A DNA stretch of 64,000 bases from Sinorhizobium fredii USDA 257 (GTDB lineage: Bacteria > Pseudomonadota > Alphaproteobacteria > Rhizobiales > Rhizobiaceae), in the NCBI RefSeq assembly GCF_000265205.3, contig NC_018000.1:4154001-4218000 (forward strand), given 5' to 3'. The notes beneath the pieces were generated by a model. The model was not told where the DNA came from. It did no database searches and saw only the letters and a program-made list of their open reading frames with translations. This document shows positions 1-15,616 of the stretch, piece by piece; within the stretch, counting starts at the first letter, position 1, and every line of letters starts with the position of its first letter. A program made the position numbers and the translations under genes.

Positions 1-2488
1 TTGGAAAGTAGATCTCATCCAGCTCGATAGTGTTCTGAACAACAGCGAGCAGTGCCGGATCTGTGATGTCCGAAGGCGCGAGCCGCGAAAGGGCAGCAAC
101 AAGGCGAACGATCGACCCAACCTCGGTAGCACTTTCCCCTGCAAGGCGACCGAGCGGCGCAAGCGTATAGAAGCCTTCGGGATCCTTCTTGATGAGCCCA
201 TGCTTTTCGAGACTCGTCAGCGCACGCAACAGATCTTCATGCGACCATCGCCATCCGTCCTGCCGGCGACCAGCAAGGAATGCTCCGAAGCTGCTCTCCA
301 GGAAGGAAACGACCGCGTCACTCGACACCCCGGCCTTCGCTGAGCGAGGCAATGCGACAAGGACGCGAAGGACAAGCGATCTCGGATCGGTGTTGCCAGC
401 AATGAACCGCGACGATAGATCTTCAGGCCTTCCAGCGACATATCGGCGCCAGAGGTAATCTTCATCGCGTGAGTTCAGGGCCAGCAGATAAGATGTTCCG
501 GCCTCGGCAAACCCCAAGCGGCCTGCGCGACCGACCAGGTTCTTGTATTCGGCAATTGAATACGGCACCTGGCCGGGATGTTCGAGGCCTACAATGATCA
601 CGCTGTTCGCGGGAGTATTCACGCCCATCGCGAGTGTCGTTGTGGCGGAGATCACTCGCAGGCCAGATCCTTCGCGACGGAATTCTTCCTCGATGACCTG
701 CCTTTCAGCGGGCTGAAGGTCGGCGTTATGAAACGCGACCCCATGCTGAAGATCGGCGATCAGATCCTTGTGCGCCTGCGATGGGTCGAGCCGCGGCATG
801 CGCTTCACCGCCTCGGTTGCCGGTGGCAATCCGAGCTGCGCTGCGAGGTAGTTGCCGACATGCCGGGACTCGCTCTTGGTTTCCCGGAAGACGATGACCT
901 GCTCTCCGGCGGCTGCCAGCTTCCGGATCAGCGGGATGATCCAGTCCTGCGCACTGTCCTTCAGCCCCATACGGGCGGCTGCACCTCTTTCGATCTTCTC
1001 GCTTCCATCCGCTGGATCGATGTACCGGAAAGAGCCGTCGTGCCTCAGGATTCCTTCACGCAACGGAACAGGTCGCTCATCTCGCCGCAGCAGCCTGCCA
1101 CCGAGCCAGGCCTCCAGACCACCGGTGTCGCCGATCACAGCGGAGAGAGCGATGATCTGTGGCTCGATACCTTCTCGTCTTCGCATTTTGATCAGCGTGA
1201 GGATGAACTCGAGGTTGGCTCCACGCGAGGGGTCGGCGATCATCTGAACCTCGTCGACAACGATCGTCCCGGCCTGAGCCAGGACATGCGGATGGGCCAA
1301 GGCGAGGGCCGCGAACTTCTCGTAGGTAAGAAGCGCGATATCGTACTTGCCGCGGATGAGTGGGGAAATATCGTCAGTTTCGCCGGTTGCCTCCAGGATG
1401 CGCAGACCGAACCCGCCATAGACTTTCTCGAAATGACGACGCTTGTCAGCGACGAGAGCCTTGAGGGGGAGAAGGAAGATCGCCCGCTTCCGATCCAGGA
1501 CCTGCCGAAGGGCGGCCAACTCTCCGACCATCGTCTTGCCAGACGACGTCGGTGCGGAGACGAGGAGATGTTTCCCCTGAAGGATGCCGTACTCGTTGAT
1601 CGCTTCGATCTGAAGCGCATTCAGCGAGGGGATTGCCTGTCTCCAGGCGGTGACGATTTTTTCGGGGAAGCCGTGAGCCGCAAGACTGTGGATGTCCGAT
1701 GTGACGGCAGCCGCGCAAATCGAAGGAAAGGCCTTCGTGAAGCGCTCTCCCTGAACGAAGACGGGCCAAGTGAGGCCACCGTCGATCTGGCCACGCATGG
1801 ATGGATTCTGGCTCTTGCCGATCTGCTGAGCTGCGGCCTTCACGCGCGCGGTCACATATTCAAGAATTCGGTAGACGGAAAGTCGTCCAGCCTCCTGGAT
1901 TTCAGCCGGGCCGCGGAGCGCTTTCAGAAGGTAGTAGGTGAGGAGTCCGTGGCCGTGGCTCGAAAACTCCCATGCCTCTTCCGAGACACCTGATGCGGTG
2001 AGGATGAGACGACCATCACCCGCCAGGTTCTGAAGGCGGACCTCCGTCGAAGCGAGGCTGCGAGGCACTGCTGGCACCTGCAGAACCTTCGCGCCTAGGC
2101 CACCCGAGAAGCAGCAGTCGAGGAACAGGATCACGCGGCGAGCGGGTATCCGAGAGAACCAATCCTGAAGACGATCAAGCGGGAGGGAAGTAGCCGGTAT
2201 GTCGTCGTAGGCGGTATCATGGACGATCAGTTCGTGCGTTTCCGAACCGTGACCGGAGAACGCGATGACAACGGTATCGTCAGGGTCGCAATTGGAAAGT
2301 GTCTCGAATTCCTCCTCGATCCTCCCCAGCGAAGCGTCCTGATCAGTCAGCAGGACCGTGCGGCCGCCCAGAGTATCGGCGAACATTGCCCAAAGCGCTC
2401 TCGCATCACGCGCCGCGCACGACAGGTCGCGGATCTCGGACGACTGGTAGCGGTCAATACCGACAAACAAACCCCTGAACGTCAACAT
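1..2488 (-). CDS. Caspase-like protease fused to Ski2-like DExH helicase (partial, runs off left edge)
   Basis: One uninterrupted reverse-strand reading frame of 829 codons runs from an ATG at 2488 to the window edge with no stop. Residues 1 to about 250 are a caspase/metacaspase-like (peptidase C14) domain: the histidine motif SGHGSE (His80) and the cysteine motif LDCCFSGG (Cys125/126) are both present, so the protease looks intact. From about residue 285 a superfamily 2 helicase follows: motif I SAPTSSGKT (about 311-319), motif II VVDEVQ, motif III LSAV, motif V TTLAMGVNTP and motif VI LVGRAGR. This pattern is closest to Ski2/Hel308-like enzymes. A winged-helix-like stretch begins near the cut end; the C-terminus is missing. 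The predicted Shine-Dalgarno (GGGTGA) is weak. Caspase-like domains in bacteria are often effectors of immunity or cell-death systems, so a nucleic-acid-sensing helicase gating a protease is plausible, but the function is inferred. Identification of both domains is firm. Confidence 0.88.
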   Translation of the reverse strand, partial: MLTFRGLFVGIDRYQSSEIRDLSCAARDARALWAMFADTLGGRTVLLTDQDASLGRIEEEFETLSNCDPDDTVVIAFSGHGSETHELIVHDTAYDDIPATSLPLDRLQDWFSRIPARRVILFLDCCFSGGLGAKVLQVPAVPRSLASTEVRLQNLAGDGRLILTASGVSEEAWEFSSHGHGLLTYYLLKALRGPAEIQEAGRLSVYRILEYVTARVKAAAQQIGKSQNPSMRGQIDGGLTWPVFVQGERFTKAFPSICAAAVTSDIHSLAAHGFPEKIVTAWRQAIPSLNALQIEAINEYGILQGKHLLVSAPTSSGKTMVGELAALRQVLDRKRAIFLLPLKALVADKRRHFEKVYGGFGLRILEATGETDDISPLIRGKYDIALLTYEKFAALALAHPHVLAQAGTIVVDEVQMIADPSRGANLEFILTLIKMRRREGIEPQIIALSAVIGDTGGLEAWLGGRLLRRDERPVPLREGILRHDGSFRYIDPADGSEKIERGAAARMGLKDSAQDWIIPLIRKLAAAGEQVIVFRETKSESRHVGNYLAAQLGLPPATEAVKRMPRLDPSQAHKDLIADLQHGVAFHNADLQPAERQVIEEEFRREGSGLRVISATTTLAMGVNTPANSVIIVGLEHPGQVPYSIAEYKNLVGRAGRLGFAEAGTSYLLALNSRDEDYLWRRYVAGRPEDLSSRFIAGNTDPRSLVLRVLVALPRSAKAGVSSDAVVSFLESSFGAFLAGRRQDGWRWSHEDLLRALTSLEKHGLIKKDPEGFYTLAPLGRLAGESATEVGSIVRLVAALSRLAPSDITDPALLAVVQNTIELDEIYFP

Positions 2489-2513
2489 ATTCACCCTTTG
2501 TTCTGGAGGCTAT

Positions 2514-2540: not shown

Positions 2541-2629
2541 GTTCATGTTCAAGACAGAAACGCCTTTGCGACAGAGTTTATGTCAAAAAGACAAAGTTCG
2601 TGTCATCGTACACTGTTGCTGACCGATAA

Positions 2630-5600
2630 TCAGCTGCAGCCACTCGTGGCGCCGCACGTGTCGCACTTCTCGCAGGTGCCGTTCCTGACCATCGTGAAGT
2701 TCTGGCACTCGGAGCACATGTTGCCGGTGTAGCCCTGCATGATTGAGCGGGCGCGGCGTTCCGCTTCGACCTTCTTGGCTTCCGACTTGGCAGCGGCGGC
2801 CTCCGCGGCTGCCTTGTCGGAGAAGAGGGCGGTCACTTCCTGCTCGACTTCTTCGGCGATCTCCTCGGCGAGCTCGGCGGCGCGCTCCTCATAGTCGCGC
2901 TTGAAGGCGACGACCTCCGAGCTGGCAATGGCCGTTGTGGGCTCCAGCTTGCGGGCGGCATTGCCGGCAATCGAGGTCACCGTGGCGCCGCCGGCGGCGC
3001 GGGCCGGAGCGCCGGTCGAGGCACCCTTCGGCTCCGAGCGATCGCCCGTGCCGCCGACGATCGTCGGCTTGTAGCCGCGCGTCCAGCCGGTCGAGACGAG
3101 GTTGGTCTTGCCTTCCTGAATGCCGCGGCCGAGCGCCGTGTTGCTGAAGTCGGAGGTGTCGACATGGGCAAGGTCGTGACGGCCGAGATAGGAGACGGCG
3201 AGTTCGCGGAACACGTAGTCGAGGATCGACGTCGCGTTCTTGATCGCGTCATTGCCCTGAACCATGCCGGCCGGTTCGAACTTGGTGAAGGTGAAGGCCT
3301 CCACATATTCCTCGAGCGGCACGCCATATTGCAGGCCGAGCGAGATGGCGATGGCGAAGTTGTTCATCATCGCGCGGAAGGCGGCCCCTTCCTTGTGCAT
3401 GTCGATGAAGATCTCGCCGATGCGGCCGTCGCCGAATTCACCGGTCCGCAAGTAGACCTTGTGACCACCGACGATCGCCTTCTGGGTATAGCCCTGACGG
3501 CGGTTCGGCAGCTTCTCCCGGGCGCGCACGACCTTCTCGATGACGCGCTCGACGATCTTTTCGGTGACGGCGACCGCTTGCGCAGCGGCCGGCGCCTGCA
3601 GCAGTTCTTCAAGCGCGTCCTCGTCTTCCTCGTCCTCGATCAGCGAGGCGTTCAGCGGCTGCGACAGCTTCGAACCATCGCGGTAGAGCGCATTCGCCTT
3701 CAGCGCCAGCTTCCAGGAGAGCATGTAGGCGTTCTTGCAATCCTCGACGGTCGCCTCGTTCGGCATGTTGATCGTCTTGGAAATGGCACCCGAGATGAAC
3801 GGCTGGGCGGCGGCCATCATGCGGATGTGGCTTTCGACCGAAAGGTAGCGCTTACCGATCTTGCCGCAGGGATTGGCGCAATCGAAGACCGGCAGGTGCT
3901 CGGCCTTGAGGAACGGCGCGCCTTCGAGCGTCATGGCACCGCAGACATGGATGTTCGCGACTTCGATGTCCTTCTTCGAGAAGCCCAGGTGCTCGAGGAG
4001 ATTGAAGTCCATTGAGGCGAGCTGCTCGTCCGTGACCTTCAGCGTGTCCTTGAGGAAGTCGGCGCCGAGTGTCCACTGGTTGAAGACGAACTTGATGTCG
4101 AAGGCGGATTTCAGCGCCGTGTTGAGGGCGTCGACCTTGTCGTCGGTGAAGCCCTTGGCTTTCAGCGTCGAAGGATTGACGGCCGGCGCCTGGTTGAGAT
4201 TGCCATGGCCGACCGCATAGGCCTCGATCTCGGCGATCTGGCTTTCCGAATAGCCGAGGGTGCGCAACGCCTCCGGCACGGCGCGGTTGATGATCTTGAA
4301 GTAGCCGCCGCCGGCGAGCTTCTTGAACTTGACCAGCGCGAAATCGGGCTCGATGCCGGTGGTGTCGCAATCCATGACGAGGCCGATCGTGCCGGTCGGC
4401 GCGATCACCGTCGCCTGGGCGTTGCGGTAGCCATGCTTCTCGCCGAGCTCGACGGCCTTGTCCCAGGCGCTCTTGGCGTGCGCGATCAGATCCTGGTCCG
4501 AGCAATCGGCGTGGATGAGGGCGACCGGGTCGACCGACAGGCCCTCATAGCCCGTGGTTTCGCCATGGGCGGCGCGGCGGTGGTTGCGCATGACGCGCAG
4601 CATGTTGTCGCGGTTCGGCGCGAAGCCGGGGAAGGGGCCGAGCTTGGCCGACATTTCCGCCGAGGTCGCATAGGCAACGCCGGTCATGATGGCGGTCAGC
4701 GCGCCGGCGATGGCGCGGCCTTCGGCCGAATCATAGGGAATGCCGGTGGACATCAGCAGCCCGCCGATATTGGCATAGCCGAGGCCGAGCGTGCGGTATT
4801 CATAGGAGAGTTCGGCAATCTCACGTGACGGGAACTGCGCCATCATTACCGAGACTTCAAGCACGATCGTCCAGAGACGCACGGCGTGTTCGTAGTCGGC
4901 GATGTTGATCCGCTTGTTGGCGGCATCCTTGAACTGCATCAGGTTGAGCGATGCGAGGTTGCAGGCCGTGTCGTCGAGGAACATGTATTCCGAGCACGGG
5001 TTCGACGCGCGGATCGGCCCCGCCGCCGGGCAGGTGTGCCAGTCGTTCATCGTCGTGTTGAAGTGCAGCCCCGGATCGGCCGACGCCCAGGCCGCATAGG
5101 AAATCGACTCCCAGAGATCACGAGCCTTCAGCGTCTTCATCACCCGGCCGTCCTTGCGGGCCGTCAGGTGCCATTCGCCGTCGGCCTCGACGGCGCGCAG
5201 GAAGTCGTCCTTGATCGAGACGGAATTGTTGGAGTTCTGGCCTGAAACCGTAAGATAGGCTTCCGAATCCCAGTCCGTGTCGTAGGTCTTGAATTCGATG
5301 TCCTTATAGCCCTGCCGGGCGAACTGGATGACGCGCTTGACATAGTTTTCCGGTACCAGAGCCTGTTTGGCAGCGCGGATCTCGCGCTTCAGCGCCGGGT
5401 TCTGTTTCGGGTCGAAGCAGGCATCATCGCTGCCGTCGCAGTTGATGCACGCCTTCATGATCGCCTTCAGGTGCTTGGCGACGATCTTCGAGCCGGTGAC
5501 GAGTGCGGCGACCTTCTGCTCTTCCTTGACCTTCCAGTTGATGTATTCCTCGATATCCGGATGGTCGATATCGACGACCACCATCTTGGCGGCGCGGCGC

Positions 5601-6421
5601 GTCGTGCCGCCCGACTTGATGGCGCCGGCAGCGCGGTCGCCGATCTTCAGGAAGCTCATCAGGCCGGAGGACTTTCCGCCGCCCGAGAGCTTTTCACCCC
5701 CGGCGCGCAGATGCGAGAAGTTGGAGCCGGTGCCCGAGCCGTATTTGAAGAGACGCGCCTCACGCACCCAGAGGTCCATGATGCCGCCCTCGTTGACGAG
5801 GTCGTCGGCGACCGACTGGATGAAGCAGGCATGCGGCTGCGGGTGTTCGTAGGCGGACTTCGATTTCCTCAGCTTGCCGTTGAAGGGATCGACATAGAAA
5901 TGACCTTGGCCGGGGCCGTCGATGCCATAGGCCCAGTGCAGGCCGGTGTTGAACCATTGCGGCGAATTCGGCGCGACGCGCTGGGTGGCGAGCATATAGG
6001 CAAGCTCGTCACGGAAGGCGCTAGCGTCCTCTTCCGTGTCGAAATAGCCACCCTTCCAGCCCCAATAGGCCCAGGTGCCGGCGAGGCGATCGAAAACCTG
6101 GCGGGCATCCGTTTCGGATCCGTATTGCTCGTCCTTCGGTAGCGCCTTCAGCGCCTCCGTGTCGGGAACCGAGCGCCACAGGAAGGAGGGGACGTCGTTT
6201 TCCTCGACGCGCTTCAGCTTGGCCGGCACGCCCGCCTTGCGGAAATATTTCTGCGCGAGAATGTCGGCCGCGACCTGGGAGAACTGCGCCGGCACGTCGA
6301 TATTGGCGAGGCGGAAGACGATCGACCCGTCCGGATTCTTGATCTCGCTCGTCGCCTTGCGGAATTCTATCTCGGCATAGGCCGATTGCCCTGCCTTCGT
6401 GAACCGACGTTCGATCTGCAT
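2630..6421 (-). CDS. nrdJ: Vitamin B12-dependent (class II) ribonucleoside-diphosphate reductase
   Basis: This cytoplasmic enzyme reduces ribonucleotides to deoxyribonucleotides with adenosylcobalamin as radical source. The 1263-residue product has the class II signatures [20 protein letters not shown] and the later FDCANPCGK and [12 protein letters not shown] blocks. It ends in a cysteine cluster, CSECQNF...CEKCDTCG...GCS, which is a zinc-finger-like tail plus the redox cysteine pair that recycles the active site. I chose the ATG at 6421 because AAGGACGGGACA gives a good ribosome binding site. An in-frame ATG at 6442 would add seven residues but lacks one. Rhizobia typically depend on this B12-requiring reductase. 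No class I or III RNR gene is visible here. Two NrdR boxes lie about 110-155 bp upstream. Confidence 0.96.
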
Positions 6422-6530
6422 TGTCCCGTCCTTCGTTGCCATGCGCCAAGGCGCAGTTAACCTCGCCCGGCCGCGAGGGTCCGCAGCCAGCTTCAGCTTC
6501 CGTTCTCTAGAGGAAACCCAATACCCGGGT

Positions 6531-6577
6531 GTTCCGTATCTTGTGGTGATGCTGGCTGCAATCACTAAATATAGTAT
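6531..6577 (-). promoter_or_regulatory. Pair of NrdR boxes upstream of nrdJ
   Basis: The consensus NrdR box is acaCwAtATaTwGtgt. The segment 6562-6577 (tcactaaatatagtat) matches 13 of 16 positions, including the central CTAaATATAG core. A second, half-conserved box lies at 6531-6546, where the right half TATcTTGTG matches. The two boxes are exactly 31 bp apart centre to centre, three helical turns, which is the usual spacing for cooperative NrdR binding. This predicts repression of nrdJ by the ATP/dATP-sensing repressor NrdR. Confidence 0.7.
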
Positions 6578-7140
6578 TAACAGGTTCTTTATGCCAGCCT
6601 TAACATTGTTTCGGCGCCCTCGAATCGCGCAAAATTCCGCCGCTGCGGCCACGCGAGATCACCCGCTTCAGCCACATGCCAGAACCGACGATATGGGGGA
6701 ATGAACCGGCTTCTCAACTTCCCGGTTCGCCGCCGTCGCAACGTGCAATCCATTAACCGTGAATCGCCTTGGGGCGTCAAGGGGTGGTTTGTGACGGAAA
6801 TTTGAGCGCTAGATCTTGTGTGGATCGACTGTGGAAAACGGGGACATCAACCAAGCCGTTGAAAATCAGGGACTTCCGGTGGCTATCTTGCAACAGGCGG
6901 CGACCAGGGAAAGAAAATGAGAGTTTTCACGGGTAAAAAACAGGTAACGGGGCATCCCACGGTGCTACTAGCAATTGCGGTGCGCGCCGGAATGTGAAGC
7001 GATCGCTTTCATGATTCGGCTGACTATATGTTGTGCCTGGAGGGCCAGCACCCGAAGTCCGGTACATGCCTCGAATCGCATGTGAACGCGACCATGGCTC
7101 TCGTGCGGGGGCTCTCGTGCGGGGCTCTCTTGCGCTTGCG
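6578..7140. other. Intergenic region nrdJ - DUF72, with a small tandem repeat
   Basis: This stretch of about 560 bp holds no convincing gene. A perfect 14-bp unit (GCTCTCGTGCGGGG) is repeated in tandem at 7097-7110 and 7111-7124. A 12-bp palindrome, AAGCGATCGCTT, sits near 6997. Start codons are present, but the frames they open are short and lack rhizobial codon bias. Upstream nrdJ promoter sequence probably occupies the left part. Confidence 0.5.

Positions 7141-12832: not shown

Positions 12833-15616
<2,784 letters not shown>

Follow-up and report, generated by a model that had tools for sequence, protein, structure and literature searches.

A gene at the left edge of a 64,000-nucleotide stretch of the Sinorhizobium fredii USDA 257 genome (the window; C1:4154001-4218000 in the assembly, C1 being contig NC_018000.1) encodes a protein of 1,034 amino acids (aa), the caspase-helicase, in which a caspase-fold protease (residues 1-240, His80/Cys126) is followed by a Hel308-type superfamily 2 (SF2) helicase (residues about 274-1010). 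The gene often lies among anti-virus genes, and its product is therefore probably an uncharacterised immune protein. It is proposed, with a probability of about 0.6, that the caspase-helicase is a mobile single-polypeptide defence protein: the motor would sense abnormal DNA and release the protease, and the infected cell would be stopped. The domain anatomy, the intact active sites, an old fusion whose halves co-diverged, mobility, defence neighbours and, in one clade, a gene pair are read from sequence and carry this proposal.

The first 80% of the protein is encoded in the window by a reverse frame (1..2488, minus strand, residues 1 to 829; the open frame, 2..2494, reaches the left edge). 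The initial annotation had placed the C-terminus beyond that edge, and a leftward extension (stretch L002) indeed adds 616 bases that include the gene end. The complete gene starts at an ATG at window position 2488 and is on the minus strand of the assembly at L002:11384-14488, equivalent to window -616..2488 and, with the stop, to C1:4153385-4156488. Pfam matches, all above cut-off, are Peptidase_C14 (PF00656, 2.7e-13, residues 7-231), DEAD (4.2e-22, 292-452) and Helicase_C (1.7e-9, 579-659); together with the full gene they bear out the annotated union of a caspase-like domain and a DExH helicase in a single reverse frame. The caspase-fold domain (1835..2476, minus strand, residues 5-218) also matches the NCBIfam model NF047832 at 4.6e-26, below cut-off, and contains the catalytic His80 (SGHG, 2249..2251, minus strand) and Cys126 (LDCCFSGG, 2111..2113, minus strand). 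The window part of the helicase (1..1669, minus strand, residues 274 onward, model NF002654) comprises both RecA-like domains and the start of the later domains. It carries the Walker-A Lys318 (APTSSGKT, 1535..1537), motif II DEVQ (residues 412-415, 1244..1255) and motif VI GRAGR (residues 653-657, 518..532), all on the minus strand.

Homologues were collected in one scan of genome contigs with six peptide patterns, and their counts are lower bounds. The scan gave 20 loci, 11 of which (L019-L029) are relatives over their available length; ten include the caspase part and one contig (L026) ends before it. According to their record titles, these loci come from Rhizobiales, Planctomycetes, cyanobacteria, Myxococcales, Ignavibacteria, a Jorgensenbacteria genome and Frankiaceae. 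A plasmid collection yielded a further 200 records with a match, of which 12 reach a query coverage of 80% or more, and one contig of the IMG/VR viral collection (L050) carries a relative over at least 80% of the query. None of the 19 phage records with a match covers 80%. An alignment of 23 sequences was built from the S. fredii protein, the 11 genome loci, 10 of the 12 plasmid loci and L050. The [SA]GHG and DCC motifs, and with them His80 and Cys126, are kept in all 22 homologues that include the N-terminus; loss of this pair, which had been named beforehand as a refuting observation, was not seen. GKT, LSAVIG and GRAGR are kept in 23/23, and motif II reads DE[VAG]Q. The residues singled out in the initial annotation (His80, Cys125/126, Lys318, DEVQ, GRAGR) were all correct in this alignment. 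A frame-fusion artefact or chance open reading frame is ruled out by the 23 aligned homologues, and the frame lies far beyond chance because collinear relatives at 35-85% identity occur in several phyla.

The fusion is old, and its two halves have diverged together: over 20 full-length sequences, pairwise distances in the caspase part follow those in the helicase part (r = 0.947; the sequences are related, and no significance is claimed). A helicase tree of 23 rows included HamB, two archaeal Hel308-like proteins, three helicase-only bacterial relatives and three other helicases. In this tree, which has several long outgroup branches, 13 helicase halves of caspase-helicases form one clade (support 100/99) apart from all outgroups. 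Within it the Bradyrhizobium copy joins a Nitrospirota copy (100/100), apart from the S. fredii, L019 and Rhodopseudomonas copies of the same order, a sign of horizontal transfer. Among 60 near relatives (33 of the same genus, S. fredii included), a whole-length match was found in the S. fredii genome only, with partial helicase or caspase matches in 38 others; among 385 sampled genomes of the class, a match at 1e-60 was again found in this genome only. The S. fredii protein is 35-58% identical to members in other phyla. By this distribution the gene is rare, patchy and mobile across several phyla, and a housekeeping gene is ruled out (1/60 near relatives, 1/385 class genomes). The earlier view that the architecture is not a housekeeping one therefore holds for a rare gene found on plasmids and on a Tn7-like transposon; a syntenic single-copy core locus, the other observation named as refuting, was not seen.

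The helicase half scores best with Hel308 models: NF002654 is matched at 1.1e-78, with residues 274-1010 aligned to model positions 8-703 of 739. The equivalog cut-offs are unmet (265 vs 887 bits for NF002654; 209 vs 1200, 205 vs 1216 and 182 vs 891 bits for the others), and by these scores the helicase half is a relative of Hel308, not an orthologue. In sequence comparison with the Protein Data Bank (PDB), archaeal Hel308/Hjm rank first (3.5e-48), and HamB follows at 1.5e-22. An AlphaFold2 model was made for the L019 orthologue (1,033 aa, 80% identical; mean predicted local distance difference test (pLDDT) 78.3, predicted TM-score (pTM) 0.60). With this predicted structure Foldseek ranks 1-8 are all Hel308/Hjm, over 740-784 columns and with TMt 0.70-0.77. 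The Hel308 domain set (RecA1, RecA2, winged helix, ratchet and C-terminal domain) was recognised as a whole, from the full-length profile and the fold alignment. The initial "Ski2-like" label was right as to the group, and profiles, PDB relatives and fold refine it to Hel308-type within the Ski2-like group.

A rival reading places the protein in the response to DNA damage and not in immunity as such. In such a scheme Hel308 would sense stalled forks and the protease would cleave repair regulators, giving programmed cell death triggered by DNA damage or a regulation of repair. The Hel308 architecture of the helicase half fits this, and human Hel308 (HELQ) is described as working in DNA repair in the available part of one paper (PMC12278908). 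The helicase half aligns over nearly the whole length of the archaeal and metazoan Hel308 (HELQ) proteins, whereas the caspase-helicase is bacterial, mobile, protease-fused and far under the equivalog cut-offs. A patchy accessory distribution and defence neighbours are unlike repair genes, and the repair scheme is considered quite unlikely.

The caspase half belongs to the caspase superfamily (C14) by its Pfam match, its aligned His/Cys dyad and its predicted fold. A separate model of L019 residues 1-245 (pLDDT 86.3, pTM 0.88) has caspase-3, MALT1 and caspase-8 (E 3e-11 to 7e-11) and CED-3 among its ten best Foldseek matches (E 3e-11 to 2e-10 overall); the predicted fold superposes on caspases with TM-scores of 0.64-0.71 by query length and a root-mean-square deviation of 4.6-9.1. 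Among proteases of solved structure, metacaspases come closest in a sequence-profile comparison (4.4e-6). Cys126 aligns with a position occupied by Ala or Gly in the crystal constructs of the metacaspase MCA2, presumably the mutated active-site Cys. An Asp two residues before the Cys, as in metacaspases and MALT1, is taken here to mark specificity for Arg/Lys rather than Asp; by analogy, the Asp two residues before Cys126 suggests an Arg/Lys-type cleavage preference. Among curated caspase types the closest is that of the EACC1-caspase two-gene systems, whose model NF047832 is matched by 22 of the 23 homologues. The caspase-helicase differs from these systems in the constant Hel308 helicase that follows the caspase, and no EACC1 gene was recognised near it in scans that used no EACC1 model. 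Two further caspase-family genes lie about 9 kb apart elsewhere in the S. fredii genome (C1:2971154-2971828 and 2980559-2981209).

One of the closest known systems is Hachiman, which likewise couples a Hel308-like SF2 helicase to an effector. In the part of the work available, HamB is reported to be a sensor helicase, functionally nearer to Hel308 than to Ski2 RNA helicases, that restrains HamA until DNA damage is detected (Tuck et al., PMC12278908). The effector of the caspase-helicase is an in-frame caspase, whereas that of Hachiman is a separate DUF1837 nuclease, HamA. Direct descent from HamB, with HamA swapped for an N-terminal caspase, would make the protein a divergent Hachiman. Both helicases are Hel308-like and HamB profiles do match the helicase core, the best at 103 bits; this match is not full-length, the matched stretch starting at profile position 233, and the caspase holds the N-terminus. 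A real HamB scores 1387 bits, and the Hel308 model gives the caspase-helicase 265 bits vs 103 for the best HamB model. In the tree, with its several long outgroup branches, HamB is on a long branch of its own and the caspase-helicases are grouped separately. HamA (DUF1837, PF08878) was found in two of the 21 genomes or records searched (those of L026 and L050 aside), was unmatched in the other 19, and was beside the caspase-helicase in none. One of the two matches is within a separate complete HamAB at L048. The other is on another contig of the S. fredii genome (G000:C14:163931-166739), where HamA (5.3e-25) and a 1187-aa frame with a helicase match are about 1 kb apart and probably form a Hachiman system. 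Membership in Hachiman was rejected on the HamA, HamB and tree results, and direct descent from HamB is very improbable.

The simplest reading, by analogy, is that Hachiman-like logic is contained in one chain, with the motor as sensor and the caspase as output. We infer, as follows, that DNA is sensed, that the helicase governs the protease, which substrate is cut, and that growth arrest or death results. The Hel308-type motor would patrol DNA and respond to anomalies such as the replication forks of a phage or plasmid, ends containing single-stranded DNA (ssDNA), or damage. DNA engagement and ATP hydrolysis would lift the restraint on the fused caspase-fold protease, and the freed protease would cut a cellular target, perhaps the DUF6338-like membrane protein that is co-encoded in the rhizobial clade. 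Cleavage of the target would stop the infected cell. Proteases are a regulated component of bacterial immunity elsewhere, in the Canu caspase-nuclease and the trypsin-HamA (HamMAB) systems: in some Hachiman systems a HamA-fused protease activates a pro-nuclease, and a caspase-activated nuclease is also known, as stated in the available part of one report (PMC12799240). As described there, the Canu fusion differs in that it has no helicase and is paired with a gated MBL nuclease. No Canu-type MBL-fold nuclease or Ig-like domain was found in Pfam scans of the caspase-helicase and part of its neighbours.

Known defence systems recur near the gene. On the S. fredii element itself a Septu-like pair, the PtuA/PDC-M01A ATPase (2.3e-192) and PDC-M01B, is encoded at L002:4275-6658 (plus strand), about 5 kb away. 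PADLOC scans identified QatA at L019, a CBASS cyclase with a 2TM effector at L029, Mokosh MkoA and MkoB at L040 and pAgo at L042. The complete Hachiman HamA and HamB of the L048 plasmid lie 3.7 kb from the caspase-helicase, and at L022 there is another caspase gene (126 bits), together with a WYL/WCX regulator. No PADLOC match was obtained for the protein scanned from the multiubiquitin gene of L047. An AbiEi-like neighbour was recognised by PADLOC at L044, and the same DUF6088 family occurs in control window L102; neither was counted. At L020 (9911-14784) the caspase-helicase is truncated near residue 820 and is followed by Thoeris ThsA and ThsB at the nrdJ site, an arrangement reminiscent of a partial replacement of one defence cargo by another.

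For a count by product name, windows of about 21 kb (15.6 kb for L045) around the plasmid loci were compared with control windows taken from the same plasmids at a distance of about half a record. Two of the 12 plasmid loci, H7 and H11, were dropped as near copies of H6 and H10, and toxin-antitoxin and Fic genes were excluded from both the near and the control counts. A defence gene was present near the caspase-helicase at seven of ten loci vs one of ten control windows (Fisher p = 0.020). The positives are TIR/caspase genes (L040, L041), Piwi (L042), ABC-three-component (L043), caspase (L046), multiubiquitin/ThiF (L047) and restriction (L048) genes; the sole positive control window is L105 (MmeI).

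Several points weigh against the immune reading. The keyword rule was set after the near windows had been viewed and was not blind, so that the neighbour enrichment is support, not proof. Without the two softest positives, the generic caspase of L046 and L047, the count falls to 5/10 vs 1/10 (p = 0.14), and the name rule picks out no defence gene at L039, L044 and L045. The PADLOC scans used hand-picked neighbours of the caspase-helicase loci, and the control windows were judged by product names. No PADLOC match was found for the two scanned neighbours of L028 or for the upstream gene of L021, and among the best 25 PADLOC models listed for the S. fredii protein (P0001), none spans the whole protein. 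The caspase half resembles the EACC1 type weakly, under the model cut-off (91.6 vs 140 bits for P0001; 98.9 vs 140 for L042). Partners differ between clades, so that no universal substrate is visible. Shared mobile islands could partly explain the defence neighbours. The defence setting suggested in the initial annotation is thus upheld by the named systems nearby and by the first count, although the enrichment is not significant under the stricter rule. The sensor-effector role that it also suggested is so far a hypothesis.

The partner genes fall into clade-wise sets. The rhizobial clade encodes a 216-aa protein, predicted to have two membrane helices, whose start is separated from the caspase-helicase stop by 8-9 bases. 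It is intact in S. fredii (P0002) and at L019; at L039 a 113-aa version is followed by an IS3 transposase. The L019 copy is weakly DUF6338-like (4.6e-5, below cut-off), and P0002 itself has no Pfam, PADLOC or NCBIfam match. A distant P0002 relative (25.6% identity) is on a Rhodobacteraceae plasmid with no caspase-helicase listed nearby. A conserved, uncharacterised gene of roughly 400 aa is directly upstream in two Planctomycetes and one Myxococcales locus (L021, 8730-9929; L023, 675-2000; L025, 8769-9986); the 399-aa product at L021 has no match in Pfam, PADLOC or NCBIfam. L040 and L041 share a 201-aa gene (the L040 copy is PDC-S54-like, 2.9e-31), and L043 and L045 share a downstream exonuclease-domain gene, with a BRCT domain in L043. 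When 23 hand-picked partner proteins were compared all against all, these sets alone emerged, with no similarity between them, and a single universal partner was rejected. Such clade-specific partners could be cleavage substrates or regulators, and could just as well reflect chance islands.

The carrier of the S. fredii gene was traced from its insertion site. DNA homology to the S. fredii sequence stops at L002:14619-14652, around the stop codon of nrdJ (14630-14632), in every one of the 19 same-genus loci. The sequence after nrdJ is largely collinear in five of these relatives, and that of one (G013) maps to C1:3966594-3979730 of S. fredii, in the same orientation and 176.9 kb from nrdJ; the S. 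fredii genome therefore contains a large insertion. The right end is an 18-bp terminal inverted repeat (2595..2612, C1:4156595-4156612, minus strand) with an exact inverted copy at C1:3982782-3982799 and no further copy at up to 3 mismatches in the 186 kb examined. It is flanked by a 5-bp target-site duplication, CTGTT (2613..2617, plus strand), also present left of the left end. The element so bounded, C1:3982782-4156612, is 173,831 bp long. Its right end lies beyond the nrdJ stop codon by 17 bp, or by 12 bp without counting the duplication. The nrdJ gene (2630..6652, minus strand), for a B12-dependent ribonucleotide reductase (NF005736, 2370.9 bits), is outside the element and is conserved in 31 of 33 relatives searched. 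The outermost cargo gene of the element, next to its right end, is the caspase-helicase.

At the left end are a TniQ protein (PF06527, 2e-21), a TniB/TnsC ATPase (PF05621, 4.1e-20) and a transposase with PDB TnsB relatives at 3.7e-13, under cut-off in Pfam. By its TnsB, TnsC and TniQ genes, inverted ends, 5-bp duplication and conserved-gene site, the carrier is a transposon of the Tn7/Tn5053 family. An integrase-type island at nrdJ, first suspected from the insertion of about 177 kb, was ruled out by the TniA/B/Q-type ends and left-end genes, and a tRNA attachment site by the lack of a tRNA in L002 or L003. A similar element end (2 mismatches) is present past nrdJ at L020; at L019 the caspase-helicase is at the same nrdJ site, with no element end within 4 mismatches there. 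In the portion available of a survey of 6,549 Tn7-like elements, scanned up to 125 kb either side of tnsB, median lengths are 14-29 kb and the longest element is 140 kb (PMC8649781). The 173.8-kb element exceeds this maximum, and nested insertions within it are possible. No literature pairing Tn7-like elements with a ribonucleotide reductase was found among the 20 matches listed of 41. Between the end of the G013 homology and the left end of the element are 3,051 bp (C1:3979731-3982781, L091:3731-6781) with otsA (TIGR02400) and a gene called otsB-like by eye; otsA and otsB-like genes are not beside nrdJ in G013. Elsewhere on C1, about 39 places share a dispersed repeat of about 107 bp (L087:15672-15782), seen in a search that scored 40 of 354 candidates.

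The gene is often on mobile DNA, outermost before the Tn7-like end, on plasmids, and near integrases, recombinases or transposases, as would suit a helper or stability gene of its carriers, acting in inter-element competition, plasmid incompatibility or addiction with proteolysis aimed at proteins of rival elements. The carriers differ in kind, a Tn7-like element and plasmids, yet defence genes recur alongside, and a helper role is regarded as unlikely.

The combination of a caspase with a helicase has been counted before. A 2012 survey reported helicase activity in 12 of 671 prokaryotic metacaspases (PMC3501461); the portion of it available gives no role, family definition, Hel308 identity or defence context. 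DEXDc is listed among orthocaspase-associated domains in the accessible text of a cyanobacterial review (PMC7475262), and two EACC1 papers, in the excerpts available, mention helicases in other settings only (PMC7159879, PMC8195603). No title listed from the open-access literature names the caspase-Hel308 architecture, and in what was searched there the family, its Hel308 identity, its defence neighbours and its carrier appear undescribed.

The immune reading can be extended, tentatively and at somewhat less than even odds, to an uncharacterised immune family in which forked or ssDNA-containing invader DNA would license an Arg/Lys-type caspase to cut lineage-specific partners, and which is spread by plasmids and nrdJ-docking Tn7-like elements. 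On that same joint reading, and no more firmly, the family may be a single-chain bacterial counterpart of pathways that pair a nucleic-acid sensor with a caspase. If this is true, the caspase-helicase would represent another route by which a Hel308-type helicase became an immune sensor, with proteolysis replacing a nuclease as the direct output. The 3' end of nrdJ would be a docking site, and an unusually large Tn7-family island would have a part in the spread of defence genes. The protein would also offer a compact and testable model of how nucleic acids gate a caspase, a matter that bears centrally on how caspase immunity arose.

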